Part shown: one piece after another, positions 19,866-36,402 of the stretch
How positions within the stretch are numbered: the first letter of the stretch is position 1
How the letters are laid out: every line of letters begins with the position of its first letter
Assembly (NCBI RefSeq): GCF_000949635.1
Contig: NZ_BAFN01000001.1
Location: forward strand, 1,736,001-1,800,000
Direction of reading: 5' to 3'
Source: Candidatus Brocadia sinica JPN1
GTDB lineage: Bacteria > Planctomycetota > Brocadiia > Brocadiales > Brocadiaceae
Length of the DNA: 64,000 nucleotides
Notes under the pieces: generated by a model
What the model saw: the letters and a program-made list of their open reading frames with translations, nothing else
What the model was told of the DNA's origin: nothing
The model's database searches: none
Position numbers and translations under genes: made by a program

Positions 19866-20105
19866 TTATTTCCATTCCCAATTTTCCATTGCATCGTCTA
19901 CGGTTCCATCAGGTAACAATGTATCGTCTTTTTTCTCGTACATTAACCTGAAAGCATTATCCCAACCCTCCCTGGGCCTGGTTTTTATTGGTTTAATGAT
20001 TATTCTTTCTTTTTCTACTTCCAAATCAACCTCGTTTTCGATATTGCATTGCTTGTAACAATTTAGTTTTTTTGAAAAAATCCTGATGAAAGCAATATCA
20101 AACAA
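19866..20105 (-). pseudogene. Decayed MazE/AbrB-type antitoxin
   Basis: A 79-codon frame. Its last 55 residues look like a MazE/SpoVT-AbrB antitoxin: VDLEVEKERIIIKPIK (the end of the swapped-hairpin DNA-binding domain), then the toxin-binding tail REGWDNAFRLMYEKKDD. The N-terminal part should read like IGNSxGIRIPKxLL; here IAFIRIFSKKLNCYKQCN sits in its place, which retains only the IRI-K pattern. The frame opens without a proper first strand or a ribosome site. No toxin gene follows on this strand; the IS66 remnant lies there instead. It could still be a short functional protein, but a broken, orphaned antitoxin is more likely. Confidence 0.6.
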
Positions 20106-20124
20106 GTTTATTACACATTCCTTA

Positions 20125-20182
20125 CCCCTCTCTAGAGGGGAATTATGAAAATCCCCTCTTGGGAGGGGACCAAGGGGTGGGT
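20125..20182. repeat. G/C palindromic dispersed repeat, intergenic copy B
   Basis: Two hairpins in tandem: CCCCTCT/AGAGGGG (20125-20131 with 20134-20140) and CCCCTC/GAGGGG (20153-20158 with 20163-20168), followed by AAGGGGTGGG. Same family as the copies at 19779 and 25320. It lies between the antitoxin remnant and uvrB. Confidence 0.7.
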
Positions 20183-20367
20183 CTGGGGCAAGCCAATTTA
20201 AAGCTTAATCAGTCTTTTCTTCAAATTTACGCAAGACGATTTATTCTCAAAACAGGTATTTTTGTATTGAGAAATATTATTGCGAGCTTCGTATATCATT
20301 TTTCAAACTCCTCATGTTTTGTATCTTTATCTTTTTTAAAGAATTTTCCATACAAATGTCCTTTGAG

Positions 20368-22374
20368 TTACACTTTCGACTCAGATGATACACTCTTGCT
20401 GTTTACGCTATATTTAGAACGGATCTGCTGAATTTTGTCCCTTAGCTCGGCTGCCCGTTCAAACTCCAATGCCTCCGCCGCCTTGAGCATCTCTTCCTCC
20501 AGTTCGTTCACGAACTCCTGGGTGATGTATTCTTCCTCGCTTTCTGCAACGGCTTCATAAACGATCTTGTGTGATGAGACCTCGTCTTCGATGCCCTTCT
20601 TGATCTCTTTTTGTATAGTCTTAGGGGTGATGTTGTGCTCTTTATTGTATGCAATTTGAAGTGCCCGGCGACGGTTGGTTTCATCGATGGCCCGTTTCAT
20701 TGAGTTTGTTATCTCATCTGCATATAAGATCACCTCGGCATTCACATTCCTTGCGGTCCGGCCGATAGTCTGTATTAAAGAGGTTTCGGAACGCAGGAAT
20801 CCCTCCTTGTCTGCATCGAGGATTGCCACCAGTGAGACCTCCGGTAAATCCAGTCCCTCCCTGAGCAGGTTGACACCTACCAGCACGTCAAATTTTCCCA
20901 ACCTCAAATCCCTTAATATCGTTACCCGTTCTATGGCGTTTATCTCAGAATGGAGGTACATACCCTTCAGCCCCTCTTCTTTGATGTACTCACTCAGGTC
21001 TTCTGCAAGCCGTTTCGTTAACGTGGTTACCAGTACCCGTTCCTTTATTTCTGAGCGTTTCTTAATTTGCTTCAGCAAATCTTCCACCTGAGTTTTTGCA
21101 GGTTTTACATAAATTACAGGATCGACAAGACCCGTTGGGCGAATAATTTGTTCAACCACCTTGCCCTTGCATTTCTTCAACTCATAAGGACCGGGTGTTG
21201 CCGAAACGAACATGATTTGATGAATCTTTTCTTCCCACTCGTCAAATCGCAAGGGACGGTTATCCAGTGCAGAAGGTAAACGGAAACCGTATTCAACCAA
21301 CGTTTCCTTGCGCGCCCGGTCGCCATGATACATACCTGCTATCTGGGGAACAGAGACGTGGGATTCATCTACAATGAGGAAAAATTCTTTGGGGAAATAA
21401 TCGAACAGTGTGTACGGTGTTTCCCCGGGTGCGCGGCCGCTGAGATGTCTCGAATAGTTTTCAATACCGTGACAATATCCTACCTCCAGAAGCATCTCCA
21501 TGTCGTAGCGTACCCTTGCCTCCAGGCGCTGGGCTTCGAGAAATTTCTCATTTGACCTTAGTTCCTTAAGGCGGTCATTCAATTCATATTCGATGGATTT
21601 GGCGACACCTTCAATCTTTCCTTCTGGCATGACAAAGTGTTTTGCCGGGTAAATGGATATTTCCTTTACCTCTTGTATAGTATTACCAGTTATGGGATTG
21701 ATTATGGAAATCCTGTCGACCTCGTCTCCAAACAATTCTATGCGGTATGCAGTCTCTTCATAGGCCGGAAATACCTCCACAACATCCCCGCGCACACGCA
21801 ATGTGCCACGCACGAACTGTATATCATTCCGATCGTATTGGATGTCGATGAGTTTCCTCAAGAGTTTGTTCCGTTCTATCGAATCACCCTTGCAGAGGTG
21901 CACATACATTTCCTGATACTCTTCGGGTGAACCCAACCCATAAATGCAGGAAACACTGGCAACGATGATAACATCTTTCCGAGATATGAGATTACTGGTT
22001 GCTCCCAAACGCAGACGGTCAATCTCCTGGTTGATGGTCGCCTCTTTCTCGATGTAGATGTCCCGTTGCGGGATATACGCCTCGGGTTGATAGTAGTCGT
22101 AATAGCTGACGAAATATCCCACGGCATTTCCGGGGAAAAAGCTCTTGAATTCGCTGTAAAGCTGGGCCGCGAGGGTCTTGTTGTGGGTCATAACCAGCGT
22201 TGGTTTTTCCAGGGCTGCAATCACATTAGCCATGGTAAAGGTCTTGCCAGAACCCGTCACGCCCAGTAAGGTTTGATATCTGGTATTTTTTCGGTAACTT
22301 TCCACCAGTTGTTGTATGGCGTGAGGCTGGTCGCCTTGCGGTGTAAAAGGGGATACTAACTGAAAAATAGACAT
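20368..22374 (-). CDS. uvrB: Excinuclease ABC subunit B
   Basis: A 668-residue DNA-damage-recognition helicase of nucleotide excision repair. Visible are the Walker A motif GVTGSGKTF, the beta-hairpin region [20 protein letters not shown] that clamps the damaged strand, helicase motifs including DESHVSVPQ and the C-terminal QTIGRTARN, and the terminal UVR motif (residues about 620-655, [24 protein letters not shown]) that contacts UvrC. Length is normal. It is the last gene of a tight minus-strand group after comEA and the permease (5-base gaps). Confidence 0.97.
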
Positions 22375-22379
22375 TATGG

Positions 22380-23633
22380 CTAACCTTTGTAATACTGCGA
22401 AGACTTGTATCTTGTCATGAACTCGTCAACAAAAACTTTTACCGTAGAGGCAATCGGTACGGCCAGCAGTAACCCTAAAAATCCAAACAGCTGGCTACAG
22501 ATCAGGATGGAGAGGATTACCATGACAGGGCTTAGCCCCAACCCCTTCCCCATAATTCTCGGTGTTATCACGGTTGCCTCAAGCAATTGCGCAATACCAA
22601 AGATGAAAAGCACATATAGTATGTGCTTGAGATCGTGAAATTGAAAGAGTGCAAGCGTGGAAGCCAGCGCAATTCCTGTACTTGTACCAACGTAGGGAAT
22701 CAGATTGCCAAAACCACTGATAAAACCGATAAGAAATGATAAAGGAATTCCTACAATTGTTAAACCAATGCTATAGATAAGAGAAAGGATAAGACAGACA
22801 ATAAGCTGGCCTCGAAGAAAATACCGGAGATTGTTATTTACTTTCGATAAAAGATTCATTGCCTGGTCTCTTTTTGAAAAAGGGAAAATGGTCTTTATGT
22901 TTTGGGCAATGGTGTTAAAGTCCTTGAGCAGGTAAATGGATACGACGCTAAAGATGATGAAATTTACGATGATACCCAAGAATCCAAAGGTACTGTAAAA
23001 AATATTTGTGATAATATCGGTAAAAAACCCCATAACCTGTGGTATATACTTTTTTAACTTCCAGGTGATCTTTACGAAAGGTATCCCTCTCAGGCTCGAT
23101 TCTCCATCAGGTGCGGAATCTTGCGGGGAGGAAACCTCCTGTTCTCCGTGTTCACCGATGTCTGCAGATGTTATTTTTTCATGTTCATTGTCATGAACAG
23201 ATCCCTTGTATTCCCGTAACAGTGATTGAATCGATTTGACGAATTCTGTGTCTCCGTATGCTTTGATCCACGACTCAAAGTCAGCTTGATATTTCGGGTA
23301 GTGGTCTTTGATGATACCGCCAACCTGATATATCCCACTGACCGTCTTCGGAATTGCATATGTCAAAAATCCAGCGGTAGTCAGGAAGACGGCAATGATA
23401 ATGAAAGCGATGCCGAATCCGCGATGGATATGTTTACGGGTAAATGGCCAATCTCTTTGTTCAAAGAAATCAACTACGGGATCAAGGATGTAGGCGGTAA
23501 TAAATGCAAGAAGAAGGGAGATAAGCGTTCCTCTCAGAAAATAACAGAACGAGAAAAAAACAATAATTGAAAACCCAATGAGTATTACACGGATACATGG
23601 ATTATCTAATATTTTTTGCCGCTCGTTTCCCAT
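22380..23633 (-). CDS. AI-2E/PerM family membrane transporter
   Basis: A 417-residue membrane protein of the AI-2E transporter (UPF0118, PerM/YdiK) family. Several hydrophobic helices are visible, including two near the N-terminus and the family core ([26 protein letters not shown]; then the C-terminal [29 protein letters not shown]). Roughly residues 140-185 form a soluble, charged insert ([20 protein letters not shown]) of unknown role. Substrate is not known; family members are linked to autoinducer or ion transport. It lies between comEA and uvrB with five-base gaps on both sides. Confidence 0.88.
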
Positions 23634-23638
23634 AAATT

Positions 23639-24055
23639 CTATTCCCGGTTATCCAGACCGACACTAACCGTGTCAGATCCTATCTTTATGTGATCTCTTA
23701 TAGCTTCTATAATGGATGTTCCTATGCCATTTACATTAGACAACTCATCCAAGGTCTTAAAATTACCGTGTTTTTCGCGGTAGGCAACGATGGCCTTTGC
23801 TTTTACCTCTCCCAATTTTGGCAATAAGACCAATTCATACCAGGGGGCATTGTTGACATCAAGTTTTACTTTTGTATCTTCGGGTTTAAGATTGCCGATA
23901 ATTTCAGTTTCCGGTAGCCACCAATGCCTGTCCATGCCTATTTTAATTATGGTACCGATAAACAACGTTGTTGCCAAAAAGTAAATGACAATAAGTTGTT
24001 TTTTTGTGGGCGAGAAATTATCGGACGGCTTCTGTGATATGGGCATAATAATCAC
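23639..24055 (-). CDS. ComEA-like helix-hairpin-helix protein
   Basis: A 138-residue protein with one N-terminal membrane helix (LIVIYFLATTLFIGTII) and a C-terminal double helix-hairpin-helix: VNNAPWYELVLLPKLGEVKAKAIVAYREKHG, then ELSNVNGIGTSIIEAI. This is the layout of ComEA, the periplasmic DNA receptor of natural transformation. A start at the in-frame ATG 24046 is equally possible. It heads an operon with the permease and uvrB rather than lying beside comEC, which is at 49.8 kb in this window. Short HhH proteins of this kind also occur in cells not known to be competent, so DNA uptake is an inference. Confidence 0.82.
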   Translation of the reverse strand: MIIMPISQKPSDNFSPTKKQLIVIYFLATTLFIGTIIKIGMDRHWWLPETEIIGNLKPEDTKVKLDVNNAPWYELVLLPKLGEVKAKAIVAYREKHGNFKTLDELSNVNGIGTSIIEAIRDHIKIGSDTVSVGLDNRE

Positions 24056-24333
24056 AAGACTTTTCAGGCATCCTTATGAATGGTTACATTCTCAAATTCT
24101 ACTTATTCTAACAGTAATTTCAAAGGATTCAAGACAATGTTGTTGTTTTTATCCCTTTCAAAAATTTTCCCATTGCTTTTGGAAGTTGCATCTATTATCC
24201 TGATTTTTAATTATCATTCTTGCACCATGAGAAGACATCTCCCGCCAGGAAAGCAATAGAAAATTTTATAATTGTGGACGCTGGAGATGTTTATTGTTCA
24301 AACCCTCTTACATTTTTTAAGACAAGCCTAACC

Positions 24334-27024
24334 ATGCTCAACAAAATCTTCTATTCCGTATCTTTGTATTTTTTTTGTGTCTTCGTAGTATCAGCTATAT
24401 GCCCGGATATTTTAGCGGATGAAGCTATGCAGGTCTCGGTGGATGACCAGGATTTTGACACCAGAAACTTCTTTGCTCTCGAAGAAATGGAGTTCAGAAG
24501 GGATAAAGTCAATTTCAATAAGGGGTGGCTGGGTATCTTTATGGAAAATGCAGAAGGAAGGGGTATTCTGGTCAAAGAGATCACACAGGGATCACCCGCC
24601 GCTGAGGCTGGTTTAAAGGTGGGAGATATTATTACGAAGATTAATAATGAGCCGACTATAGGTAAGGGCGATCTTAATCTCATCCGATTCAAGAAGGTCG
24701 TAGAAGCCATTGGTGCAGATGGTGCGCCGGTACTTACCGTTTCCAGAGATAATACCGAAATGATGTTTAAGCCAAGACTTTTCGGAAAACTACTCAAGAA
24801 CGTACATGAACCAATTACTTCTTTGATCTCAAAGGCAAGTTCCGGGCTTATAAAACAAGACGCGAATATCCCTTCCTCATCTTCGCCTTGCGAAGAAGGC
24901 CGGGAAAGTCCATCTTCGAATAAAGAGGGAAAAACGCCTTTCAATTCAAACGATACAGGAACAAGTTTTATCGGATTCGCAATCAAAAACGAAAAATACA
25001 GAGACATACTTGGTGCAACCTTGCAGAGGATTGGTGAAGAGGCGTATGCCCGGGACGGTTTCCAATCCAATGAAGAGACCAATCCGTTTCGTTTGTCCAT
25101 CGTAAATTATTTCATGTTGCACCCATTTGATACTCTCAAAATTGGACAGGTTATCGTCGATACGTTTGGTAACAAAGACCTCTGTACCCGGCTAGAGTGC
25201 GCGGCAGAACTGTTAGATGCCAGGCCGGATAAGCTTAGCATCACACCGGAAGCCAACTCTTCGTTTCCACATTTCGCAGGAGGCAGTGTGAAAGATTTTC
25301 ATTTTACCTCCCCTCTGTTCCCTCCTTCGCAAGGAGGGGATGAAGGGGTGGTCAATAAATCCCCAAATGTTTTATCAGGCATTGAGCAAACACAAAAAAT
25401 AGAGCCTGCCGATTCTTTGCAAGGGCAACTCCAGCGTATCATCGATAGCTTAGTACCCTCTGTTTCTCTTATACAAGAAGCATTTCATGACTTATCCCGG
25501 GAAGAGGTTGAATTCTTGTATCAAAATGCCCATAAAATCTGGCTGCCTGATGTGAAGGTAGGGACACAAGACCTTGCCAGGTTACTGGCACTCTCTCAAA
25601 AAGTGGATCTTGCAAGGTTGTTTGAGGCTGCATCGTTATTGTTGAGTAAGCTTGACCCGATATGTTGTGAACAAGGAATAGACGCTTTAAAAAAGACATA
25701 CCTCAATGCGACCAAAATGAATATCTCACCATTTCACATACCAGCGAACAATATCGATGGGGCAAGGGGAAGGAAAACAGGTGATTTGGCGACAGACAGT
25801 CTCCCTTCTACTGGTGGGAGGGGATTAGGAGGAGGTACTGGAGCATTACAGGATTTTGCCGGTGATATTTTGTTTGTCCAGGACACAGTCATTGGGAAAA
25901 TCGTTATGGGTGGGGCAGCTACATCGTATTATTATGCCGATGCAGCAGTAATTATCGACCTTGGAGGTAATGATTATTACTTTAATAATGCAGGCTCGTC
26001 CAGCAAGGATATCCCGGTCGCTATCTGCATCGATTTATCAGGGGATGATGTGTACAATACATCCGGCCCATTTTCTCAGGGTACCGGAAGGTTTGGAATC
26101 GGTCTCCTGGCAGATTTTAGGGGAAATGACAAATACGTGAGCCAGGATTTTTCTCAGGGGTCTTGCCTGTTTGGAATCGGAGTGTTAATGGATAATGACG
26201 GTAACGATTTTTACAGCGGTCACGTTGCAAATCAGGGAGTAGGTTTCTTTGGGGCAGGAATACTTAGTGATCTCAGTGGCAATGATGTTTATTTTAGCCG
26301 GCAATTCGCTCAGGGGGTGGGATTTACAAAAGGGTTTGGTGCATTAATAGATTCAGGTGGAAATGATTTCTACTTTGCCAGTGGAGAATATCCGGATTTT
26401 CGTGACCCGGAAAAATCATTTCAGTCCATGTCTCAGGGAATGGGGATGGGTATCAGGCCAGAAGAGTCTATTGTTGGGGCTTCAGGGGGAATTGGCATAC
26501 TTATAGATCAAAAAGGCACCGATCAGTATCATGGGGACTATTTTTCACAGGGGAGTGGTTATTATTATTCCTTAGGATTGTTATGTGATCACGAGGGCAA
26601 TGATAAATATTACGCAGGTCGCTATGCCCAGGGCGCTGGTATTCATTCAGCCATTGGTCTGTTGAAGGATGTATCTGGAGACGATACCTACGAATGCACT
26701 TTTGGTGTTTCGCAGGGGTGTGGACACGATACCGGCATCGGGTTTCTGGTGGATGATTGCGGAAATGATGCTTATCGGAGCAAGACCACTTCGCAAGGTG
26801 TTGGTCTGGAAAAGGGTATTGGGGTCCTGGCAGATTTTTACGGGAATGATACCTATGATGCAAACGATCCTAGCCAGGGCGTTTCATCCCCATCAAAAAC
26901 CGAAGAAATTACCGGCATTGGGATAGTAATTGATAATCAAGGAGACCGCGATACCTTTCATGATCCCATTGCAGAAAATCTGTTATTATACCGACCCAGT
27001 GGGGGACTGGTGTTAAATAGATGA
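24334..27024 (+). CDS. Exported PDZ protein with a long D-x-Y/Q-G repeat domain
   Basis: I do not recognise the whole protein. From ATG 24334 (896 residues) it has a signal peptide (FYSVSLYFFCVFVVSAICPDILA), then a PDZ domain (about 64-146; GWLGIFMENAEGRGILVKEI, then GSPAAEAGLKVGDIITKIN). A long middle region follows without known domains. The C-terminal third (about 539-885) is a tandem repeat of about 20-25 residues with the pattern GIGxLxDxxGNDxYxxxxxxQGxG: I count eleven ND/DD-x-Y units and about ten QG units. This probably forms a right-handed beta-helix or similar solenoid. Three G/C palindromes lie in frame (24871, 25320, 25799), giving low-complexity peptides such as PPSQGGDEGVV. A start at 24220 would put the signal peptide 38 residues inside, so I reject it. 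Confidence 0.8.
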   Translation: MLNKIFYSVSLYFFCVFVVSAICPDILADEAMQVSVDDQDFDTRNFFALEEMEFRRDKVNFNKGWLGIFMENAEGRGILVKEITQGSPAAEAGLKVGDIITKINNEPTIGKGDLNLIRFKKVVEAIGADGAPVLTVSRDNTEMMFKPRLFGKLLKNVHEPITSLISKASSGLIKQDANIPSSSSPCEEGRESPSSNKEGKTPFNSNDTGTSFIGFAIKNEKYRDILGATLQRIGEEAYARDGFQSNEETNPFRLSIVNYFMLHPFDTLKIGQVIVDTFGNKDLCTRLECAAELLDARPDKLSITPEANSSFPHFAGGSVKDFHFTSPLFPPSQGGDEGVVNKSPNVLSGIEQTQKIEPADSLQGQLQRIIDSLVPSVSLIQEAFHDLSREEVEFLYQNAHKIWLPDVKVGTQDLARLLALSQKVDLARLFEAASLLLSKLDPICCEQGIDALKKTYLNATKMNISPFHIPANNIDGARGRKTGDLATDSLPSTGGRGLGGGTGALQDFAGDILFVQDTVIGKIVMGGAATSYYYADAAVIIDLGGNDYYFNNAGSSSKDIPVAICIDLSGDDVYNTSGPFSQGTGRFGIGLLADFRGNDKYVSQDFSQGSCLFGIGVLMDNDGNDFYSGHVANQGVGFFGAGILSDLSGNDVYFSRQFAQGVGFTKGFGALIDSGGNDFYFASGEYPDFRDPEKSFQSMSQGMGMGIRPEESIVGASGGIGILIDQKGTDQYHGDYFSQGSGYYYSLGLLCDHEGNDKYYAGRYAQGAGIHSAIGLLKDVSGDDTYECTFGVSQGCGHDTGIGFLVDDCGNDAYRSKTTSQGVGLEKGIGVLADFYGNDTYDANDPSQGVSSPSKTEEITGIGIVIDNQGDRDTFHDPIAENLLLYRPSGGLVLNR
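24871..24899. repeat. Palindromic repeat inside coding sequence, copy C
   Basis: Nested arms CCTTC/GAAGG (24871-24875 with 24894-24898) and CTTCG/CGAAG (24881-24885 with 24891-24895). It is translated as part of the spacer after the PDZ domain (PSSSSPCEEGRE) and does not break the frame. It is less clear than copies D and E. Confidence 0.45.
25320..25351. repeat. G/C palindromic repeat inside coding sequence, copy D
   Basis: CCCTCCTT (25320-25327) and AAGGAGGG (25331-25338) form a perfect 8-bp hairpin with a three-base loop, followed by AAGGGGTGG. The same hairpin-plus-G-tract layout occurs in the intergenic copies at 19779 and 20125. Here it is read in frame as LFPPSQGGDEGVV. Confidence 0.7.
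25799..25834. repeat. G/C palindromic repeat inside coding sequence, copy E
   Basis: CTCCC/GGGAG arms (25801-25805 with 25816-25820) followed by GGGATTAGGAGGAGG. Read in frame as DSLPSTGGRGLGGGTG, a low-complexity peptide directly before the repeat domain. Confidence 0.65.
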
Positions 27025-27034
27025 GACGATACAC

Positions 27035-27070
27035 GATTTCGGATTGCAGAATTCGGATTTCGGGTTTAAA
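27035..27070. repeat. Left inverted repeat of the IVS-like element
   Basis: Starts GATTTCGGATTGC and ends GGGTTTAAA. It begins ten bases after the stop of the PDZ/repeat gene and pairs with 27448-27484. Confidence 0.85.
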
Positions 27071-27090
27071 AACGCAAAAAGGAGAAAAGG

Positions 27091-27447
27091 ATGGACCGCA
27101 ATGATATGAAAAAGAGAACAAAAGAATTTGCCAAAAGTATCATTAAACTCTGCCGAATATTTCCAAATAACATGGAAGGAAGATTGATTGGTAATCAGAT
27201 ATTTCGTTCAGGAACTTCAGCCGCTGCTAATTACAGAGCCGCATGTCGGGCAAGGTCGACATCTGGCGTTATTTCAAAGTTATCCATTGTGGAAGAAGAG
27301 GCAGATGAAACCTTGTTTTGGCTTGAGTTAATAAACGAAATGGAAATTGTTGATAAAGCTTTACTTAATTCATTAATGGAGGAAAATGATGAAATAATAG
27401 CCATTATCGTTTCATCCATCAAAACTGCCAGGAATAATAAAAAGTGA
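27091..27447 (+). CDS. Four-helix bundle protein (S23/IVS-encoded family)
   Basis: A 118-residue all-helical protein of the four-helix bundle family first noticed in 23S rRNA intervening sequences (S23/bIVP; relatives include the Avd accessory protein of diversity-generating retroelements). The family pattern is clear: RLIGNQIFRSGTSAAANYRAACRARS, then ISKLSIVEEEADETLFWLELINEM. It has a good ribosome site (GGAG six bases before ATG 27091). The gene is enclosed by the inverted repeats at 27035-27070 and 27448-27484. Family members form pentamers and bind nucleic acid; the cellular role is not settled. No reverse transcriptase or template repeat of a retroelement is near, so an Avd role is unlikely. 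Confidence 0.92.
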   Translation: MDRNDMKKRTKEFAKSIIKLCRIFPNNMEGRLIGNQIFRSGTSAAANYRAACRARSTSGVISKLSIVEEEADETLFWLELINEMEIVDKALLNSLMEENDEIIAIIVSSIKTARNNKK

Positions 27448-27484
27448 TTTAAACTCCGAAATCCGAATTCCGCAATCCGAAATC
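27448..27484. repeat. Right inverted repeat of the IVS-like element
   Basis: Begins TTTAAACTCCGAAATCC directly after the TGA of the four-helix-bundle gene and ends six bases before the ATG of the radical SAM gene. Reverse complement of the left arm apart from one mismatch and one gap. Confidence 0.85.
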
Positions 27485-27490
27485 AACATA

Positions 27491-28450
27491 ATGCAGATAA
27501 ATTTTATCGAACGTAAAGGATACGTTCTTACCAGATCAACGCTAAAATGTCTCAGTCAGGTGGCATCGGTCAATCCCACCCTGGGATGCATTCATCAATG
27601 TGCCTATTGCTACGCAAGGGGTTACTCGATGTATCCGGGTGACGGCAAGGTGCTTATTTACGGGAATATGCCTGAAAAATTAAAACAAGAGTTATCCGCC
27701 CGCCGGAAGTTGCCAGCCTATGTATTTTTTAGTCCAACCTGTGATGTCCTGCAACCCATCCCTCAAGTGCTCAAGGTAACCTATGAGTTGTTGAAAGTTT
27801 TGCTTGAATATGGTATTGGTATAAATCTCCTTACCAAGGGCAGAATTCCCGCAAAATTCCTGCAGTTATTTAGCCAATATAAAAAAATGGTGCACGTTCA
27901 AATAGGCATTACCACATTAGACCGGGATATTCAAAAGAGAATGGAACCTTATGCCGCGACGCCACAAGAAAGAATACAGAATATTGAACGACTCTGTGCG
28001 ATAGGTATTTTGCCCGAAATAAAATTAGACCCGTTGATCCCTGGTGCTACAGATACTGAATCGAACTTAACAGCCTTGTTTAGGATACTTCAGGGATTTG
28101 ATGTGAATTCCACGGGTACCAATTATTTATTCCTGAGACCCCAGATAAAGAAAAACTTGTATAAAGCGTTGGGGAATACACCTCTCTTGCCAAAAATTAT
28201 GGAGCATTACCAAAACAGCAAGTCCATGAATTTACTGGCAGAGCAATCCCGTGTACTTGCCCTGGATTTGGAATATAGAAAACAGTCGTATGAAAAGATT
28301 TCAAGATGGGCTAAGGATTTTGGGATTTATGCCTATGTATGCGGTTGTAAAAATCCGGATATTACCGAAGAACCGTTGTGTGGAATTAACTGGGGTCAGC
28401 ATTTTGAAAAGATTTTGGGACAGAAGCACCTGTTTGAAGAGGGTGGTTAA
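27491..28450 (+). CDS. Radical SAM protein, SplB/Rv2578c-like
   Basis: A 319-residue radical SAM enzyme. The [4Fe-4S] motif is CIHQCAYC (Cx3Cx2C) near residue 36, followed by YARGYSMYPGDGK. The sequence pattern (FFSPTCDVLQPIP, INLLTKGRIP, QIGITTLD, RMEPYAATPQERI) matches the DNA-repair-like radical SAM family related to spore photoproduct lyase, whose substrates are mostly unknown. The ATG lies only six bases after the right arm of the IVS-like element and has no recognisable ribosome site of its own, so translation may depend on the element or on a later start. The C-terminal CGCKNPDITEEPLCGINW adds more cysteines that could bind a second cluster. Confidence 0.85.
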   Translation: MQINFIERKGYVLTRSTLKCLSQVASVNPTLGCIHQCAYCYARGYSMYPGDGKVLIYGNMPEKLKQELSARRKLPAYVFFSPTCDVLQPIPQVLKVTYELLKVLLEYGIGINLLTKGRIPAKFLQLFSQYKKMVHVQIGITTLDRDIQKRMEPYAATPQERIQNIERLCAIGILPEIKLDPLIPGATDTESNLTALFRILQGFDVNSTGTNYLFLRPQIKKNLYKALGNTPLLPKIMEHYQNSKSMNLLAEQSRVLALDLEYRKQSYEKISRWAKDFGIYAYVCGCKNPDITEEPLCGINWGQHFEKILGQKHLFEEGG

Positions 28451-28478
28451 TTTAATCTTTAGAATTTTAATACTACTG

Positions 28479-28508
28479 GGTGGCATGGACAAACTCTGTT
28501 TGTCCGTG
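28479..28508. repeat. GGACAAAC/GTTTGTCC palindrome, copy 1
   Basis: CATGGACAAAC, three bases, GTTTGTCCGTG: an almost perfect hairpin with an 8-bp core, just after the radical SAM gene. A related palindrome (GGGCAAAC ... TTTGTCC with the flanks GGTAGCGTG/CATGC) lies at 59061-59092. Confidence 0.6.
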
Positions 28509-28649
28509 TTTTACTTGTTTGAATGGGGATTACAATACCTCAGATCAATATATTCTGATGAAAAAAACAGGTTTTTTACAAAAAGCACAGAAGAATTTGC
28601 TTGCAAAAGAGTTTTGAGAAATAGAGGATATCTGTACAGGAAATTTTAA

Positions 28650-28988
28650 AAGTATGAAGAGATTAAGCGGGCAGGTAAAACACCTATTTTATTCATTATG
28701 ACCACTGAGACAAAAGAAAGTGATGAAGTTGCTGGATATCTCGAAACTCGTTACCCTGAGTTTAAAAATGCAGTTCTTGTTATTTATATCAACAAAAGCG
28801 GCGAAATAATCGAAAGCAAGGCCAAGAAAGATAGGGCAGAACTTGAAAAACTGAGAAAGGCTGCCGATGCTATTGATTGCGATAGTTCCCCATACAAGGT
28901 TGTCGTGTCTGTTCTCATGCTGAGAGAGGGCTGGGACGTGGATTGCGGAAGATGTTCCCGCACGATATTACACATGAGAAGATGCTGA
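28650..28988 (+). pseudogene. Fragment of type III restriction enzyme Res helicase
   Basis: A stretch of about 100 codons from the second helicase domain of a type III Res subunit: KTPILFIMTTETKESDEV, LETRYPEFKNAVLVI, then SPYKVVVSVLMLREGWDV (helicase motif VI region). The frame is open only from 28650 and loses similarity after GWDV, running into the TGCTGAA palindrome at 28980 and a stop. The nuclease end, the first helicase domain and the arginine-finger motif are absent, so this is a remnant. Confidence 0.8.
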
Positions 28989-29006
28989 ACCAAGTTCAGC
29001 ATGACA
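28980..29006. repeat. TGCTGAA palindromic repeat, copy 2
   Basis: Second copy of the 27-base palindrome seen at 18290-18316 (24 of 27 identical by eye). It sits exactly where the upstream Res fragment loses its frame and before the next fragment resumes at 29048. Confidence 0.7.
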
Positions 29007-29047
29007 GGTTAGAAATCACAGAAGAACTTTGTGTTGTAGGGACTTAG

Positions 29048-29370
29048 GCATTTCTGGAGTTTGTGGAATCAATTAAAAGCGAGGGCGTTGAACTTGGTTA
29101 CAGAAGCATGGGAGAAACGGCAAAAGGTAATTCCCCGATAGTAATTGAACCAGATAGGGAAAATCCAGGCAAAGATCTTGAGAAACTTGATATAAAGATT
29201 CCTGTGCTTACTCCCAGACTTTACAGAGAATATAAAAGACTTGAAGAAATAAACATAGATAAATTTCACTTTACACCCGTAGAACTGAAAACATTTTCCG
29301 AAGAAGAAAAGAAAGAGATTGTCTTTAAGGATATAGAAGGTCAGATGTCGCACATTACCGTATTTGAAGG
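29048..29370 (+). pseudogene. Fragment of Res C-terminus running into the Mod start
   Basis: A second piece of the same decayed locus, in another frame. LDIKIPVLTPRLYREYKRLEE and FSEEEKKEIVFKDIEGQMSHIT match the C-terminal part of type III Res-like helicases. After HITVFEG the frame loses similarity; from 29368 the next frame reads DEEVTNVVLPFHSIEHVDE, the expected N-terminus of the methyltransferase. A small deletion or frameshift therefore lies near 29366-29370. Confidence 0.7.
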
Positions 29371-29418
29371 GATGAGGAAGTTACTAACGTTGTCCTGCCA
29401 TTTCATTCCATTGAGCAT

Positions 29419-30999
29419 GTGGATGAACCAAGAGAAGAAAAAAGCAAGACAGGTCAGTTAAAGCTGTTATCTACCGATGATAGGGGCAGGCAACTCAAGG
29501 GGTGGACAAATAAGTTGATCTGGGGAGATAACAAGCTGGCGCTTTCATCGCTTATCAACGGCCCCTTAAGAGAAGAAATAGAAAGGGAAGGAGGCCTGAA
29601 ACTCATTTATATAGACTCACCCTTTGCAGTCGGTGCCGATTTTTCATTTCAGATAAGGCTCAACGGTGATGAGGTAACAAAAAAGCCTTCCATCATTGAA
29701 GAAATTGCATACAGGGACACATGGGGTAAAGGCATCTCCTCTTACCTCTCCATGATGTATGAGAGACTGAAACTCATGCATGCTCTGCTGGCGGAGGATG
29801 GGAGCATTTATGTGCATTGCGACCGGCGGGTAGATGCCTATTTGAGGTTAATACTAGACGATGTGTTTGAAAAAGACAATTTTAAAAACGAAGTTATTTG
29901 GTGTTACAAGGAACGAGAAAGAGTTTTAAATACTTATAATCCTAAGCATGACATGCTTCTCTTCTATTCAAAATCTAATAGTATAGATAGACCTTTCAAT
30001 TGGCAAGAGGCAACCGAAGAATATTCTGAAGTTACAAAAAAGAAATTTAAATACAAGGACGATAAAGGTTGGTATCAAATCAGAGGAAAAAATACAATGG
30101 GTAGTCCTATTCAAGCTGCCGATGGATTAACTCCTGAGGATGAACAAAATTATCCAGGACTGACCTATAGAGATTATATAGAAAATAGAGCAGGTGTAGC
30201 ACCAAGAGATTGGTGGAATATTGATATCATCAACAAAGCCGCCGATGAAAGAACTGCATATATTACCCAAAAACCAGAAGCTTTACTTGAAAGAATTGTG
30301 AAAGTCTCTTCCAACGATGGCGATCTTGTGGCAGACTTTTTCTGCGGTTCAGGCACAACCCCTGCCGTAGCCGAAAAACTAGGCAGGAAGTGGATTGCCT
30401 GTGACCTCGGCAGATTTGCCATCCATACCACAAGAAAAAGACTGATCCAGGTACAACGTGAACTCAAAAGAGACGACAAACCCTATAGGGCGTTTGAGGT
30501 CTTAAATCTTGGGAAATACGAAAGAAAATATTTTATGGGTATCAATCTTGATTTGACGGAGGATGAACAGAGAAGACAGCTTGAATTAAAACATGAGGCA
30601 TACATAAATCTGATCCTGGAAGGTTACAAGGCAAAAAGGGTAGAAGGCTTGAGGACGCTTTGCGGGGTGAAGGCACAGAGATTTGTCCATGTCGGTCCCC
30701 TGGATTTTCCCATTACCAGAAAAACCGTTGAGGAGATTTATGATGAATGCCGGGAGAAGGTAATCACGCAGGTTGATGTGTTGGGTTTTGAGTTTGAGAT
30801 GGGATTGTTGCCGCGCATAGAAGATGAGATGAAAGATAAAGGAATAAACTTGAAACTCAAATATATTCCACGAGAAGTCTTTGATAAGCGGGCGGTGAAA
30901 AAGGGACAGGTAAAATTCTATGACGGTGCATACCTTGAGGTAAAACCCGAAGTAAAAGGCAAAAAGGTCAAGGTTCGACTGAAAGATTTTACGACCTAA
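29419..30999 (+). CDS. mod: Type III-like DNA adenine methyltransferase (Mod), damaged
   Basis: A 526-residue beta-class N6-adenine methyltransferase as it stands. Domain order fits the class: catalytic motif IV first (IYIDSPFAVGADF, residues 64-76), target recognition in the middle, and the SAM-binding motif I late (DFFCGSGTTPAVAE, about 305). Motif IV normally reads DPPY/DPPF; here the second residue is Ser because of TCA at 29617-29619, which may weaken catalysis. The true N-terminus begins further up (from about 29368, DEEVTNVVLPFH), and the frame is cut by TAA at 30997-30999 although it continues with family-like sequence to 31416. With frameshifted res fragments upstream, this is probably a dying gene. 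Confidence 0.8.
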   Translation: MDEPREEKSKTGQLKLLSTDDRGRQLKGWTNKLIWGDNKLALSSLINGPLREEIEREGGLKLIYIDSPFAVGADFSFQIRLNGDEVTKKPSIIEEIAYRDTWGKGISSYLSMMYERLKLMHALLAEDGSIYVHCDRRVDAYLRLILDDVFEKDNFKNEVIWCYKERERVLNTYNPKHDMLLFYSKSNSIDRPFNWQEATEEYSEVTKKKFKYKDDKGWYQIRGKNTMGSPIQAADGLTPEDEQNYPGLTYRDYIENRAGVAPRDWWNIDIINKAADERTAYITQKPEALLERIVKVSSNDGDLVADFFCGSGTTPAVAEKLGRKWIACDLGRFAIHTTRKRLIQVQRELKRDDKPYRAFEVLNLGKYERKYFMGINLDLTEDEQRRQLELKHEAYINLILEGYKAKRVEGLRTLCGVKAQRFVHVGPLDFPITRKTVEEIYDECREKVITQVDVLGFEFEMGLLPRIEDEMKDKGINLKLKYIPREVFDKRAVKKGQVKFYDGAYLEVKPEVKGKKVKVRLKDFTT

Positions 31000-31416
31000 T
31001 ACACGCAGGACGACCTTGATGAGATAGAGCAAAACCTCAAGAATGGCAGTAATAGAGTCGTTATAGAAAATGGCCAGATAATCAGGATAGAAAAAGACAA
31101 GAACGGTATCGTGAAAAGAGACATTTTAACGAAAGATTGGGTTGACTGGATAGATTACTGGGCGGTAGATTTCGATTATGCAAACAAGAAAGAGATTGTC
31201 AGAATAGGGAAAAATGGCGCATCAGAAGAGGCCTGGACAGGAAGTTATATTTTTGAAAATGAATGGCAATCCTTTAGAACCAAGAAAAATGCTGAGCTTG
31301 AATTCGAATCCTCGTGGCATGAATACAAAAAGGGTGGTAGATACAAAATAGCCATAAAGGTTGTTGATATTTTAGGACAAGATACAACTCAGGTGGTAGA
31401 AGTTAAGGTTGAATAA
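31000..31416 (+). pseudogene. C-terminal part of Mod beyond a premature stop
   Basis: The reading frame of the methyltransferase continues without a shift after the TAA at 30997-30999, for 138 more codons (YTQDDLDEIEQNLKNG ... WVDWIDYWAVDFD ... QVVEVKVE). The composition and frame continuity show this was one protein of about 680 residues before the nonsense change. An internal GTG at 31111 could start a short separate product, but nothing supports that. Confidence 0.75.
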
Positions 31417-31494
31417 ACCCGAGAAAACATTTTTGGCTGAAAGAAACGTTGATAGTGGCACTTTATATAAAGAGGTTGCAAAATTACTGGTTGA

Positions 31495-31767
31495 CCGAAA
31501 GCCGTGTTTGGGGAGCAGTTGCCATTTGATGCACTCATGAAGGCACAAGAGGAGTCCGCAAGGTGCAGGATAATGTTCCTCGTTGGCACATCTGCCGTTG
31601 TCCAGCCCGCGGCATCCTTACCTTTTTTGGCAAAACAGAAGAGGGCTCAAATAATTGAAATAAATATTGAAAAAGCTTTTCCCGATGCAGATTATTTTAT
31701 TATGGAAAAGGCAGGGACGTTCCTTCCCATGATCGTTGAAGAGATAAAAAAGATACTTATTCTGTAA
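31495..31767 (+). pseudogene. C-terminal fragment of a SIR2/CobB-type deacylase
   Basis: About 90 codons of a sirtuin: VFGEQLPFDALMKAQEE, MFLVGTSAVVQPAASLP (the conserved GTS-VxPA NAD-binding segment), IIEINIEKAFPDADYFI, then AGTFLPMIVEEI. The N-terminal two thirds, including the catalytic HG motif and zinc cysteines, are missing; the frame is closed by TGA at 31492-31494. It follows the wrecked methyltransferase and may be left over from a larger deletion. Confidence 0.8.
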
Positions 31768-31801
31768 AAAGCTGATTTTATATAATGAAGATTTTTGGAG
31801 A

Positions 31802-33736
31802 ATGATGGAGGAAAGATTGTCATTGAAAAATCTGGAAGAGAATTTTAGAGAATTAACCTGGAATGATTTACAGAATTGGGTTGGCAGCCGTACCTTAAAA
31901 AGGGGGGAAGATTATTTCAAGCGTGGCCGGGTTACGAACTTGAGAATTGCACCGACGGGGATCCTTGCCAGGGTATCTGGCACCGATGAATATACAACCC
32001 TCGTTACGATACACGGGCAAGGCCAGCAGAAGGAAATCACATCTGATTGCACCTGTCCCTATGGCAGCGGTTGCAAACATGCCGTCGCCACGGTCCTGGC
32101 ATTTTCCCAGGCTATTAAAGACAAGAGAAAAGTACCAACAGCCCAATCGACCGACCCGGACATCATGAAGATGAAAGGACTTGACGACGGTGAGTACGAA
32201 GAAGACGACTACGATGATCCCGGAGATACCCAAACTCGATCAAAAAAGTCTTCCGCTAAATCAACCCCGGACAACGATATCGCAGAGTTCCTTGACCAGC
32301 ATGACAAGGAGTTCCTGAAAAAATTCGTGATAACGCTTGCAAACAGGTATCCGGAGGTTTACACAGAGCTTTTGGACAGCGCACGGTTAGCCGGTGGCAA
32401 GGTGGAAAAGCTTATTTCCAGCATACGCCAAGAGATAGATAACATTATATCAGAACCGGCATGGCGTAACCATTGGTCAGATGAGGGAAACCCGTCTGAT
32501 TTTAGCAGGGTGAAGTCTATGATGTTGCATCTTTTTGACCAGGGTTATTACGATGCCGTCACTATTATTGCCGGGGAATTGCTGGATAAAGGTAATTCGT
32601 ACGTTGAAACCTGCGATGATGAAGGTGATTCAGCTTTGCAAATTTCTGAATGCCTGGAGATCGGATTTAAAGCGGTTAAAAAGTGTGAATGGCCAAACGT
32701 GAGTAAGATTATGTTCATCATAGAAGCGGAACTGCAGGACGAATATGATCTGTGCGGTGGTGCATACGAAATCTTAGAATCAATACGTGACAAATCGGCA
32801 TGGTCTGCAGCGGCTGACGATTTATCAGACAGGCTTGCTGATTTGCCATCCTCAAAGAATTCTAACAGCGAATTTAGCAGCAATTACCGGAGAGACCGCA
32901 TTTCCAATTTTCTTATCTCTGCCTTAGAAAAATCGGGCAGGAATGAAGAGATACTTCCCTTATGCGAGGAAGAGGCAAAAATTACCGGCAGCTGGGTACG
33001 GTATGTTGAGAGGTTGATCGGGGCAAAAAAATATGATGAAGCCAGAAAAGCTGCTGAAGAGGGTATAAAGCAGGTTGGCCAAAAGTACCCGGGAATTGGG
33101 AATACCCTGAGGGAACATATTGCAAAACTTGCAGAAAAAAGCGGCGACTATGATTCAATCTTATTCCTAAGACAGGAAGAATTTTTAGAGTATCCTTGCC
33201 TGAAAAATTACAATAAACTCATAGAAGCGGCGGTCAACACGAAAAGCGAAACAACGATCAGGGACTGGGCACTACAGTTTTTAGAAACGGGAAACGTGCA
33301 TACCCGAGGAGATCTAAAGTCCCCACAAAAAATCAAAGAAAGGTATTCCAAAAGTTTCCCTGCATATGATGTATTAATTGATATAGCGGACAAGGAGAAA
33401 GACGCTGATAAGGTATTGCATTGGTACAGACAGTCTTACGCTAAGGATCGTTGGTTTTCCGAGAAACATGTCCAGGTTGCCCATGCTATCGCAGGAAAGT
33501 ACCCTGACGAGGCGCTAAAGATATGGTGCGCATTGGCAGAAAATCAAATTGCGTTAACAAAGCCATCAGCGTACGAAACAGCTGTGGGCTATCTGAAACA
33601 GGTGCGTGACATTTATCGAAAGACCCATCGGACGAAGGAGTGGGAATCTTATGTAGCCGTTTTAAGAGAAAGCAATAAAAAAAAGATACGATTTATACAA
33701 AGTTTACGTACCCTTACCGGCGAAAGGATTATATAG
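31802..33736 (+). CDS. SWIM zinc-finger domain protein
   Basis: A 644-residue protein with a SWIM zinc finger near residues 83-95 (CTCPYGSGCKHAVA, the CxC...CxH pattern). The remainder is helical, with repeated pairs of helices (for example EAREEGIKQVGQKYPG-like segments and AIAGKYPDEALKIWCALAENQ) suggesting a TPR/HEAT-like solenoid. Proteins of this layout occur alone or beside SNF2-type helicases and bind nucleic acid or partner proteins; function here is unknown. A charged, probably disordered linker (DDGEYEEDDYDDPGDTQ) follows the finger. The start is 31802 or the next ATG at 31805, which is better spaced from the upstream GGAG. Confidence 0.85.
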   Translation: MMEERLSLKNLEENFRELTWNDLQNWVGSRTLKRGEDYFKRGRVTNLRIAPTGILARVSGTDEYTTLVTIHGQGQQKEITSDCTCPYGSGCKHAVATVLAFSQAIKDKRKVPTAQSTDPDIMKMKGLDDGEYEEDDYDDPGDTQTRSKKSSAKSTPDNDIAEFLDQHDKEFLKKFVITLANRYPEVYTELLDSARLAGGKVEKLISSIRQEIDNIISEPAWRNHWSDEGNPSDFSRVKSMMLHLFDQGYYDAVTIIAGELLDKGNSYVETCDDEGDSALQISECLEIGFKAVKKCEWPNVSKIMFIIEAELQDEYDLCGGAYEILESIRDKSAWSAAADDLSDRLADLPSSKNSNSEFSSNYRRDRISNFLISALEKSGRNEEILPLCEEEAKITGSWVRYVERLIGAKKYDEARKAAEEGIKQVGQKYPGIGNTLREHIAKLAEKSGDYDSILFLRQEEFLEYPCLKNYNKLIEAAVNTKSETTIRDWALQFLETGNVHTRGDLKSPQKIKERYSKSFPAYDVLIDIADKEKDADKVLHWYRQSYAKDRWFSEKHVQVAHAIAGKYPDEALKIWCALAENQIALTKPSAYETAVGYLKQVRDIYRKTHRTKEWESYVAVLRESNKKKIRFIQSLRTLTGERII

Positions 33737-34044
33737 AATCCCTGTATAAAAACTTCCTTTTTTGTAAGTTTTTTACCTCCCTTTCATCGCAAGGAATGAA
33801 AATAGGTTAAAGAAAATCTCGATCGGGGTCAAGGGTCAAGTTTTTTGCTCCTTGCCTCTTGTTCCTTTTTATTTTGAAAGGGCATCGAAAGGTACTTTGT
33901 GTGGTGAGTATGTCATCACCGGAGATATATCCGGGACTGTTGAAGGAACATGTCGGCTTGTAATAGAAGTTGTGACTATCTCATCCTGTTTTAAATGATG
34001 AGATTAGAACGGTTGGGATTTACAAAAAATAATAGAGGATAAGC
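33737..34044. other. Intergenic region after the SWIM gene
   Basis: No gene. An AT-rich hairpin (AAAAACTT at 33748-33755 with AAGTTTTT at 33766-33773) followed by T-rich sequence may serve as a terminator for the SWIM gene. The remainder holds a direct GGGTCAA/GGGTCAA pair near 33826-33840 and the ribosome site GAGGA of the next gene. Confidence 0.45.
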
Positions 34045-34512
34045 ATGTATCAAAACTTAAAAATAGGGAACTTTTTGATTATATTTATCGGAATTACGTG
34101 CGTAATTGGCTGTAGAAATGCTGACGTTAGAAAAAATGATATTAAATCAATTGACAGTAAAAAAACCGACGCCAAAAACAGTAGCAAACAATCCGATCTT
34201 TATGATGAAACAGGCATTGCTTCATTCATTTCTGATGAATACGATGGCAAAATGACCGCGAGTGGTGTCCGTTATGATAAAAACAAATTGACAGCTGCTC
34301 ATCCGTCGTTGTCCTTTGGAACAAAAATATTGATTACCAATTTGATGAATAAGAGAAAGGTTGAAGTAATTGTTATAGACCGTTTTTATCGCACGACGGA
34401 CAGGATTGTGAATGTTTCACATAGGGCCGGTGTAGAATTAGATTTGATAGAGAGCGGGATTGCAAAAGTAGGCATAACGATCATTGAAAAAACCGGTCAG
34501 AATTTCAAGTAA
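34045..34512 (+). CDS. rlpA: RlpA-like double-psi beta-barrel lipoprotein
   Basis: A 155-residue exported lipoprotein. The signal peptide (LIIFIGITCVIGC) ends in a lipobox, so the mature protein starts at Cys near residue 23. The RlpA domain follows: GIASFISDEYDGKMTASGVRYD, LTAAHPSLSFGTKILITNLMN, then the VIVIDRFY segment. In most RlpA proteins this last motif reads NDRGPF before the R-I-D-L-S segment; here GP is replaced (DRFYRTTDRIVNVS). The catalytic aspartate position is kept. RlpA cleaves glycan strands lacking stem peptides at the division septum; the change may alter activity. No SPOR domain is present. Confidence 0.85.
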   Translation: MYQNLKIGNFLIIFIGITCVIGCRNADVRKNDIKSIDSKKTDAKNSSKQSDLYDETGIASFISDEYDGKMTASGVRYDKNKLTAAHPSLSFGTKILITNLMNKRKVEVIVIDRFYRTTDRIVNVSHRAGVELDLIESGIAKVGITIIEKTGQNFK

Positions 34513-34680
34513 AAGGGATTTGTTCTCTATCCAACTGAATAACTGTGGATAATTGGGAACACCACCCGCATTTTTCTTGGCGCGTTAACAGCTATCTGAT
34601 ATCATGTTCACACTACGGCGGGAATTGAAAGGGTAATTGTTCAGGATCTTTCCCATAACAAGAAAAACACCAGGTATACC

Positions 34681-36402
34681 ATGGAATTCAAACACGATGT
34701 TCTCATAGTGGGAGCCGGGCTTGCCGGTTTGCGGGCGGCAGTAGAGGTGGCGGGAGTTGCGGATGTTGCCCTGATCAGTAAGGTGTTTTCCACCCGCTCT
34801 CATTCCGGTGCCGCCCAGGGAGGTATTGCCGGAGCGCTGGGCAATGAAGAGCCCGATTCATGGGAATGGCACATGTACGATACGGTCAAGGGGGGGGATT
34901 TTCTCACTGACCAGGATGCAGCTGAAGTTCTGACGCAAGATGCCCTCCGGGCTATTTACGAGCTTGAGCATATGGGTGTTCCTTTCAACAGGACCCCGGC
35001 TGGTACCATTGCCCAGCGGGCATTTGGCGGCCATACCCGCGATTTCGGCAAGGCGCCGGTTAAAAGGGCATGTCATGCAGCCGACCGTACTGGCAGGGTA
35101 ATTATGGATACCTTGTACTTCGAATCACTCCGGAAGGGGATTAAGGTCTATGAAGAATTTTATCTGCTGGATCTGATTATGCAGGAAGACACGGTTGCAG
35201 GTCTCGTGGCATACGATCTTGCAACGGGCGCTGTTCACGTCTTTCATTCGCGGGTAGTCGTGTTAGCAACGGGTGGTTTCGGCAAGGTGTACAAAACCAC
35301 CTCCAACTGTTTCGCGAATACCGGGGATGGAGTGTATCTTGCCTATAGGGCAGGGGTGCCTCTCGAGGATATGGAGTTTGTTCAATTTCATCCCACCGGT
35401 ATTTATGGCATGGGTGTGCTCATTAGTGAGGCAGCCCGCGGCGAAGGGGGTATGCTTCGGAATGGGAAAGGGTACCGGTTTATGGAAAGGTATGCCCCAG
35501 GCTTAAAAGATCTTGCCCCACGGGACGTCATTAGTCGTGCAATTTATGACGAAATTCGTGAGGGCAGGGGAATTGATGGACGGGATTACGTCCACCTTGA
35601 TCTTACCCATCTGGGGAAAGAACGCCTTGCGGCGAAACTCTCTGATATTTCCTCCTTTGTCCGGATCTATCTGGGAATCGATCTGGTCAGGGATCTCATC
35701 CCCGTACAGCCCACCTGCCACTATATGATGGGAGGGATTCCCACAAACCTGGATGGCCAGGTTCTTGATGAAAATCAACAAGTGATACAAGGCCTTTATG
35801 CAGCCGGTGAATGTGCCTGTGTATCGGTGCACGGCGCTAACCGGTTGGGCTGTAATTCGCTACTTGACCTTGTGGTGTTTGGGCGCAGGGCAGGGAAAAA
35901 GATACTCCAGGCACTGGATGGTCTTGCCTGGGTCTCGTTGCCCGATCAACCAGAAAGGGATACTCTTGCAAAGATCGATCGTTTGAAGAGGCGACAGGAT
36001 GGAGAAAAGGCCGGGGTATTGAGGAATGAGATGCAAGAGGCCATGATGGCGTATTGCTCCGTATTCCGTAACAAGAAAGACCTGAATAAAGCCCTTGCAA
36101 CTATCCGGTCTTTAATGGAACGATATGAGGGAGTTGCAATAGACAATCGCGGGCTTGGATTTAACACAGACCTTACGGAAGCCCTTGAATTGGAATCTTT
36201 ACTCAACCTGTCATATATAATCCTGGTTTCTGCATTGGCAAGGGAAGAAAGCCGTGGCGCTCATTTCAGGGAAGATTATCCCGAAAGGGATGATCAAAAC
36301 TGGCTCAAACATACCTTAATCCGGAAGACTATGGACGGTTATCGCCTCTTCTACAAGCCGGTGACTATTACACGATTTGAACCAAAACCGAGGGTGTATT
36401 GA
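34681..36402 (+). CDS. sdhA: Succinate dehydrogenase/fumarate reductase flavoprotein subunit
   Basis: A 573-residue FAD subunit of complex II. The dinucleotide-binding motif is VGAGLAGLRAA at the N-terminus; the histidine that holds FAD covalently lies in SHSGAAQGGI. Substrate-binding residues are visible in FHPTGIYG, in the GEGGMLRNG segment and in HGANRLGCNSL; the C-terminal ESRGAHFREDYPERDD is also conserved. The iron-sulfur subunit gene starts at its stop codon. Direction (succinate oxidation or fumarate reduction) cannot be read from the sequence. No membrane-anchor gene (sdhC/D) is found next to it on either side. Confidence 0.95.
   Translation: MEFKHDVLIVGAGLAGLRAAVEVAGVADVALISKVFSTRSHSGAAQGGIAGALGNEEPDSWEWHMYDTVKGGDFLTDQDAAEVLTQDALRAIYELEHMGVPFNRTPAGTIAQRAFGGHTRDFGKAPVKRACHAADRTGRVIMDTLYFESLRKGIKVYEEFYLLDLIMQEDTVAGLVAYDLATGAVHVFHSRVVVLATGGFGKVYKTTSNCFANTGDGVYLAYRAGVPLEDMEFVQFHPTGIYGMGVLISEAARGEGGMLRNGKGYRFMERYAPGLKDLAPRDVISRAIYDEIREGRGIDGRDYVHLDLTHLGKERLAAKLSDISSFVRIYLGIDLVRDLIPVQPTCHYMMGGIPTNLDGQVLDENQQVIQGLYAAGECACVSVHGANRLGCNSLLDLVVFGRRAGKKILQALDGLAWVSLPDQPERDTLAKIDRLKRRQDGEKAGVLRNEMQEAMMAYCSVFRNKKDLNKALATIRSLMERYEGVAIDNRGLGFNTDLTEALELESLLNLSYIILVSALAREESRGAHFREDYPERDDQNWLKHTLIRKTMDGYRLFYKPVTITRFEPKPRVY

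Follow-up and report, generated by a model that had tools for sequence, protein, structure and literature searches.

The 64,000-nt stretch of the Candidatus Brocadia sinica genome analysed here (the window) carries a compact unit in which one small gene is enclosed by two inverted arms (Table 1). The gene encodes a 118 aa protein of the S23 family (TIGR02436, E = 3.6e-24; PF05635, E = 7.2e-16), and the two arms are reverse complements apart from one mismatch and one gap. Gene and arms had been read in the original prediction from the letters alone; the family was confirmed and the arms were reproduced to the base, as was the tight fit of the unit between its neighbours. Ten bases separate the unit from the upstream gene, whose last base is 27024, and six separate it from the downstream radical-SAM gene, which begins at 27491. 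Aligned to the reverse complement of the right arm, the left arm reads GATTTCGGATTGCAGAATTCGGATTTCGG-GTTTAAA. It has a lag-7 self-match of 0.66 and is kept in related species. The stop codon of the S23 gene directly abuts the first base of the right arm.

Table 1. Features of the S23 unit, with positions counted from the first base of the window.
Feature	Start	End	Strand	Description
Left arm	27035	27070	+	Degenerate tandem heptamers GATTTCG GATTGCA GAATTCG GATTTCG + GGTTTAAA
Leader with ribosome-binding site AGGAG	27071	27090	+	20 bases, read from the sequence
S23 / four-helix-bundle protein gene	27091	27447	+	TIGR02436 and PF05635 profile matches
Right arm	27448	27484	+	Reverse-complementary to the left arm; forms a stem in the RNA fold

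A profile built from relatives matches PDB 2RLD (E = 1.9e-31). The solved relatives, 2RLD and 2GSC, have five chains per entry, and we take them to be pentameric in solution. One close relative is a Candidatus Brocadiaceae MAG (87% protein identity). The inverted repeat scores 30, whereas shuffled flanks reach no more than 9, and the predicted RNA fold of the unit (-127.7 kcal/mol, z = -4.7) pairs the arms into a long stem. A scan of positions 26900-27600 found no promoter-like site on the + strand and no terminator-like site. Past the radical-SAM gene, positions 28698-30999 contain an N6_N4 DNA methylase gene preceded by short ORFs that resemble remnants of a restriction gene; PADLOC matched no known defence system.

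The genome (4.08 Mb in 3 contigs) encodes about 10 PF05635 genes, most of which sit between inverted repeats. The arm sequence is different at each, and the arms resemble runs of degenerate 7-mers, at times 8- or 9-mers. The original prediction named the same arm-gene-arm unit at several unrelated sites as support. This was not found: arms differ between copies, and the exact window arms occur together with the gene at no other site in the genome. The prediction also counted arms confined to one place, or arms occurring widely without the gene and unrelated to it, as evidence against a mobile unit. The window's heptamers are not restricted to this site, but elsewhere in the genome they recur only as gene-free hairpins. 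They lie in frame within two coding genes (L019, 564-1721; L020, 702-1610), one of them hypD-like and the other with a signal-peptide-like start. There the GATTTCG hairpins or arrays add ISDFGFRIS- or NPKSEIR-type peptides to the product, and the number of heptamers in the hypD-like gene varies among relatives. One further S23 gene (L006 left flank, contig C1, ~369.7-371.2 kb of G000) is flanked by inverted 9-nt repeat arrays, TTCAAACCG-like and several hundred bases long on one side. Another lies ~2.6 kb from a reverse transcriptase (G000:C1:3963177-3966792).

A survey covering 181 family genes in 16 phylum-level groups, composed of a Planctomycetota-wide sample and 80 named loci from many phyla, indicates how general this arrangement is. 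Genes were counted as bracketed when their upstream and downstream flanks of 200 nt each gave an inverted-repeat score of at least 14 with one another. By this measure 56% of the family genes are bracketed by inverted arrays, compared with 3% for mismatched flanks, 0% for shuffled flanks and 1.1% of neighbouring ORFs (n = 526); among the neighbour ORFs reaching the threshold in a second listing, two turned out to be four-helix genes themselves. Bracketed loci are present in 14 of the 16 groups. The arms match themselves at 66% at lags 7 and 14 (~31% when shuffled), and the best period is 7 in 73 of 94 arms and 8 in 15. They also have a polarity: the G-rich strand forms the 5' arm 92 times, the C-rich strand 6 times. 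For the remaining 44% of the genes no clear arm pair reaches the score threshold; these may represent decay or another kind of gene.

The S23 genes also follow the direction of their surroundings. They are co-oriented with the upstream gene in 91% and with the downstream gene in 84% of cases, over a background of 79%; between two flanking genes on the same strand, 63 S23 genes share the direction of their neighbours and 3 oppose it. The 23S oligos tested are absent from all 176 family loci, so a protein-gene context is the usual one in this sample and not an exception. A tblastn search of phage records with a subfamily 2 query gave no match.

Could such arrays arise simply by replication slippage and template switching at hairpins, with no functional link to the enclosed gene? 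Heptamer number does change by whole units between species, and tandem heptamers without S23 genes are known in bacteria (PMC4679880). The location of the arrays speaks against this. A strict heptamer-array scan of 464 kb of the genome (the 64-kb window and twenty stretches of 20 kb each) returned almost nothing, and an inverted-repeat scan was therefore applied instead. It listed 25 inverted repeats, among which the window arm pair ranks first and the second scores 24, and the clear heptamer-period repeats are located at S23 genes. Neighbour genes lack the arrays, and arm type tracks the protein subfamily across phyla. We regard slippage as a very improbable explanation.

The correspondence between arm and protein can be quantified. 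Protein identity correlates with arm similarity (Mantel r = 0.38, 0 of 500 permutations), and does so when only pairs from different phyla are compared (r = 0.45, 0/500) and across phyla inside the window's subfamily (r = 0.20, 0/500). Mean arm similarity is 0.35 for window-subfamily pairs from different phyla, against 0.20 for pairs of different subfamilies within one phylum. Of the 52 arms of the window's subfamily, 37 contain the motif GAWTNNNGAWT; of the 49 arms of the other, none does. As this motif was picked after inspecting the arms, it was applied, on either strand, to separate plasmid loci not used in finding it. In these mostly cyanobacterial loci it is found in 5 of 7 members of the window's subfamily and 0 of 8 of the others (p = 0.007). 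They also serve as a check on the main set, whose subfamily 2 members come from Planctomycetota only. In subfamily 2 the arms take various forms, AGGGNNN and AGTNGCN among them, and show no greater likeness among themselves than across subfamilies. We conclude from these sequence comparisons that the arm follows the protein subfamily and not the host.

A similar architecture surrounds an unrelated gene. Of 30 Planctomycetota loci with GxxExxY genes (TIGR04256, PF13366, PD-(D/E)XK; L326-L355), 19 have the gene enclosed by inverted tandem-repeat arms. The arms have a ACCGCAAAGGCGCAAAG-type repeat with a period of 8-9 nt, and the mismatched control reaches 10% because the loci have one repeat type in common. 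Like the S23 units, these consist of a small gene within inverted tandem-repeat arms, and one site is common to both; unlike them, they encode a predicted nuclease with no relationship to the S23 protein. This suggests a second cassette class built on the predicted GxxExxY nuclease. In one case (G000:C1:294412-295526) a reverse transcriptase adjoins the GxxExxY gene, and a GxxExxY gene near a reverse transcriptase is mentioned in PMC8934634.

Occupancy of shared sites differs widely between related species. At the window site the unit is intact in four genomes (G000, G004, G008, G009) and in two of other genera (G032, G023), which indicates that this copy is old and inherited. G003 retains a degraded full-length copy, G002, G007, G010 and G028 carry internal deletions, and in G006, G027 and G030 only a fused arm-to-arm hairpin is left. 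G005 has a different four-helix gene with different arms, of which G001 keeps a remnant, while gene-less GxxExxY-type repeats occupy the site in G026, G031, G011 and partly G029; G018 and G019 have no unit at all. The original prediction had held that the same place in all relatives, within a stable operon, would speak against mobility. The place is indeed common to several genera, but the site is unstable and the unit is no fixed part of an operon.

Three further sites behave alike; their names, and that of the fliI site below, are our own reading of the flanking sequence. At cheW, one S23 type is present in G000, G001 and G010 and another, with TTTAGGG-like arms, in G008, with remnants in G002, G003 and G006; the site is empty in G005 and G009. 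A single GYAAAA stands in the empty site of G005 and one on each side of the occupied site of G008. This is a possible target-site duplication, a single short and A-rich case at a junction that was read by eye because automatic multiple alignment misplaced the flank of the empty site. At cheY, an S23 gene with GCAGTAG arms occurs in G000 and G002, with remnants in several species; G004 has a GxxExxY gene instead (L331), with related sequence in G005 and G008. At the rnr/HD site, one unit with a varying number of arm heptamers is found in five species, with a remnant in G002, and other inserts occur elsewhere. In the sequences compared, all four sites turn over, with gain and loss mostly not separated. 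No two strains that differ solely by a unit were found, nor were near-identical Planktothrix plasmids with and without one, and no transposition event was caught. The view of the unit as selfish or mobile, put forward in the original prediction, thus gains support from deletion, replacement and absence at shared sites and from gene-free hairpins in coding genes, but is not proven.

These patterns bear on the idea that the arms form an autoregulatory RNA hairpin of an ordinary host or defence gene, with the S23 protein controlling its own expression by binding to this stem in the mRNA, and without any mobility. The strong predicted stem and the agreement between arm type and protein would fit such a role, and several plasmid copies lie between genes annotated as DISARM, BREX or CRISPR. 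It accounts poorly for entire arm-gene-arm units that are missing or replaced at shared sites, for gene-free hairpins that persist, also within hypD, and for a protein that is often broken or deleted in related species. We consider it unlikely.

The same sites could instead hold cargo of an unrelated transposase or RAYT that acts in trans on the hairpin ends, with S23 as a passenger. Terminal inverted repeats, gene-free copies and the possible GYAAAA direct repeat are features of this kind, and inspection by eye showed a RAYT-like gene with REP-type hairpins in one relative, at its fliI site. Yet the heptamer arms vary between copies of one genome, unlike the fixed ends of a transposase, and arm type tracks the very protein that would be a mere passenger. 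Mobilisation of this kind appears improbable.

Among the known systems closest to the unit is the 23S rRNA intervening sequence (IVS) with an S23 ORF, for example that of Coxiella burnetii (PMC4990558). Both have complementary ends with an S23-family ORF in the loop, a 5' arm of tandem heptamers of variable number, and an ORF prone to decay. In Coxiella, three GACAGAT heptamers and a variant precede the S23 gene, heptamer number differs between strains, the stem measures 28 bp, and excision is by RNase III cleavage at the first repeat (PMC4990558). Since the Coxiella IVS also has tandem heptamers, the anatomy is common to both, and the IVS-like plan proposed in the original prediction is supported by this, by the heptamer arms of the window unit and by most sampled relatives in many phyla. 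The heptamers themselves differ from GACAGAT, and the window unit lies outside rRNA. An rRNA context is ruled out here, as two protein genes flank the unit and positions 20000-36000 have no Rfam match. We therefore do not class the unit as an IVS, given its different location, although it has the build of one and probably the same mode of action. It may represent an ancestral form of the IVS, as the original prediction also considered, or a unit that has moved out of rRNA.

Like REPIN/RAYT systems (PMC3116915), the units combine hairpin-forming inverted repeat doublets with a cognate gene and gene-free copies. Unlike them, they have an S23 protein and no tyrosine transposase, heptamer arrays in place of REP palindromes, and few dispersed copies in the sequences seen here; the enclosed gene matches PF05635/TIGR02436 only. 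Nor is the unit an insertion sequence, as S23 is its sole gene and no transposase is present. Structural homology has been reported between PF05635 proteins and Avd, an accessory protein of diversity-generating retroelements (PMC10053308), and a sub-threshold bAvd match was obtained for one plasmid protein of subfamily 2. Unlike such a retroelement, the window unit has no adjacent reverse transcriptase: RVT_1 has no match near 1.763 Mb of contig C1, and reverse transcriptases are found elsewhere in the genome. We found no publication in the open-access literature on S23 genes with heptamer arms outside rRNA, and the units apparently form an undescribed, widespread class of small selfish elements.

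The arms, their heptamer period and polarity, the match between heptamer and subfamily, the recurrence across phyla and the unstable occupancy are established at the level of sequence. Taken together, we think it probable that the window unit is one copy of a widespread class of selfish S23 cassettes with inverted arms of 7-nt repeats. Such a cassette would insert chiefly into transcribed intergenic gaps, pointing the same way as its neighbours, and its co-orientation suggests expression by read-through. In the transcript the arms would pair as a long stem, which RNase III probably cleaves, by analogy with rRNA IVSs. A likely target of the oligomeric four-helix protein is the heptamer array of its own arms, in the form of an RNA stem or of DNA, and the protein probably helps the unit to persist or spread. 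As the S23 protein has no known catalytic domain, spread would need a partner, perhaps a host nuclease or reverse transcriptase. Internal deletion would then reduce the cassettes to bare hairpins, and rRNA IVSs with S23 genes would be those members of the class that lie in rRNA.

More than 25 years after their discovery, what S23 proteins and rRNA IVSs do and where they come from is still unclear (PMC4990558). The match between heptamer and protein makes the system testable: there is a candidate code for binding, a large number of natural constructs, and sites whose occupancy changes between related species. It also offers a possible origin for the heptamer repeats scattered in bacterial genomes. 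More tentatively, and with somewhat less than even confidence, we speculate that S23 proteins are sequence-specific binders of 7-nt arrays with a subfamily code (GAWTNNN versus AGK-type) that maintain selfish cassettes across phyla. Their products would include rRNA IVSs, gene-free hairpins in coding genes and many dispersed bacterial heptamer repeats, perhaps the cyanobacterial STRR, with the GxxExxY nucleases as a parallel class.

Some plasmids of cyanobacteria and Chloroflexota carry S23 genes inside operons annotated as DISARM, BREX, DUF1156/Swt1 or CRISPR (L260-L263, L357, L360, L365, L368). The gene orders in these operons include drmD-S23-PglX, cas6-S23-cas4 and cas10-S23-cmr3.
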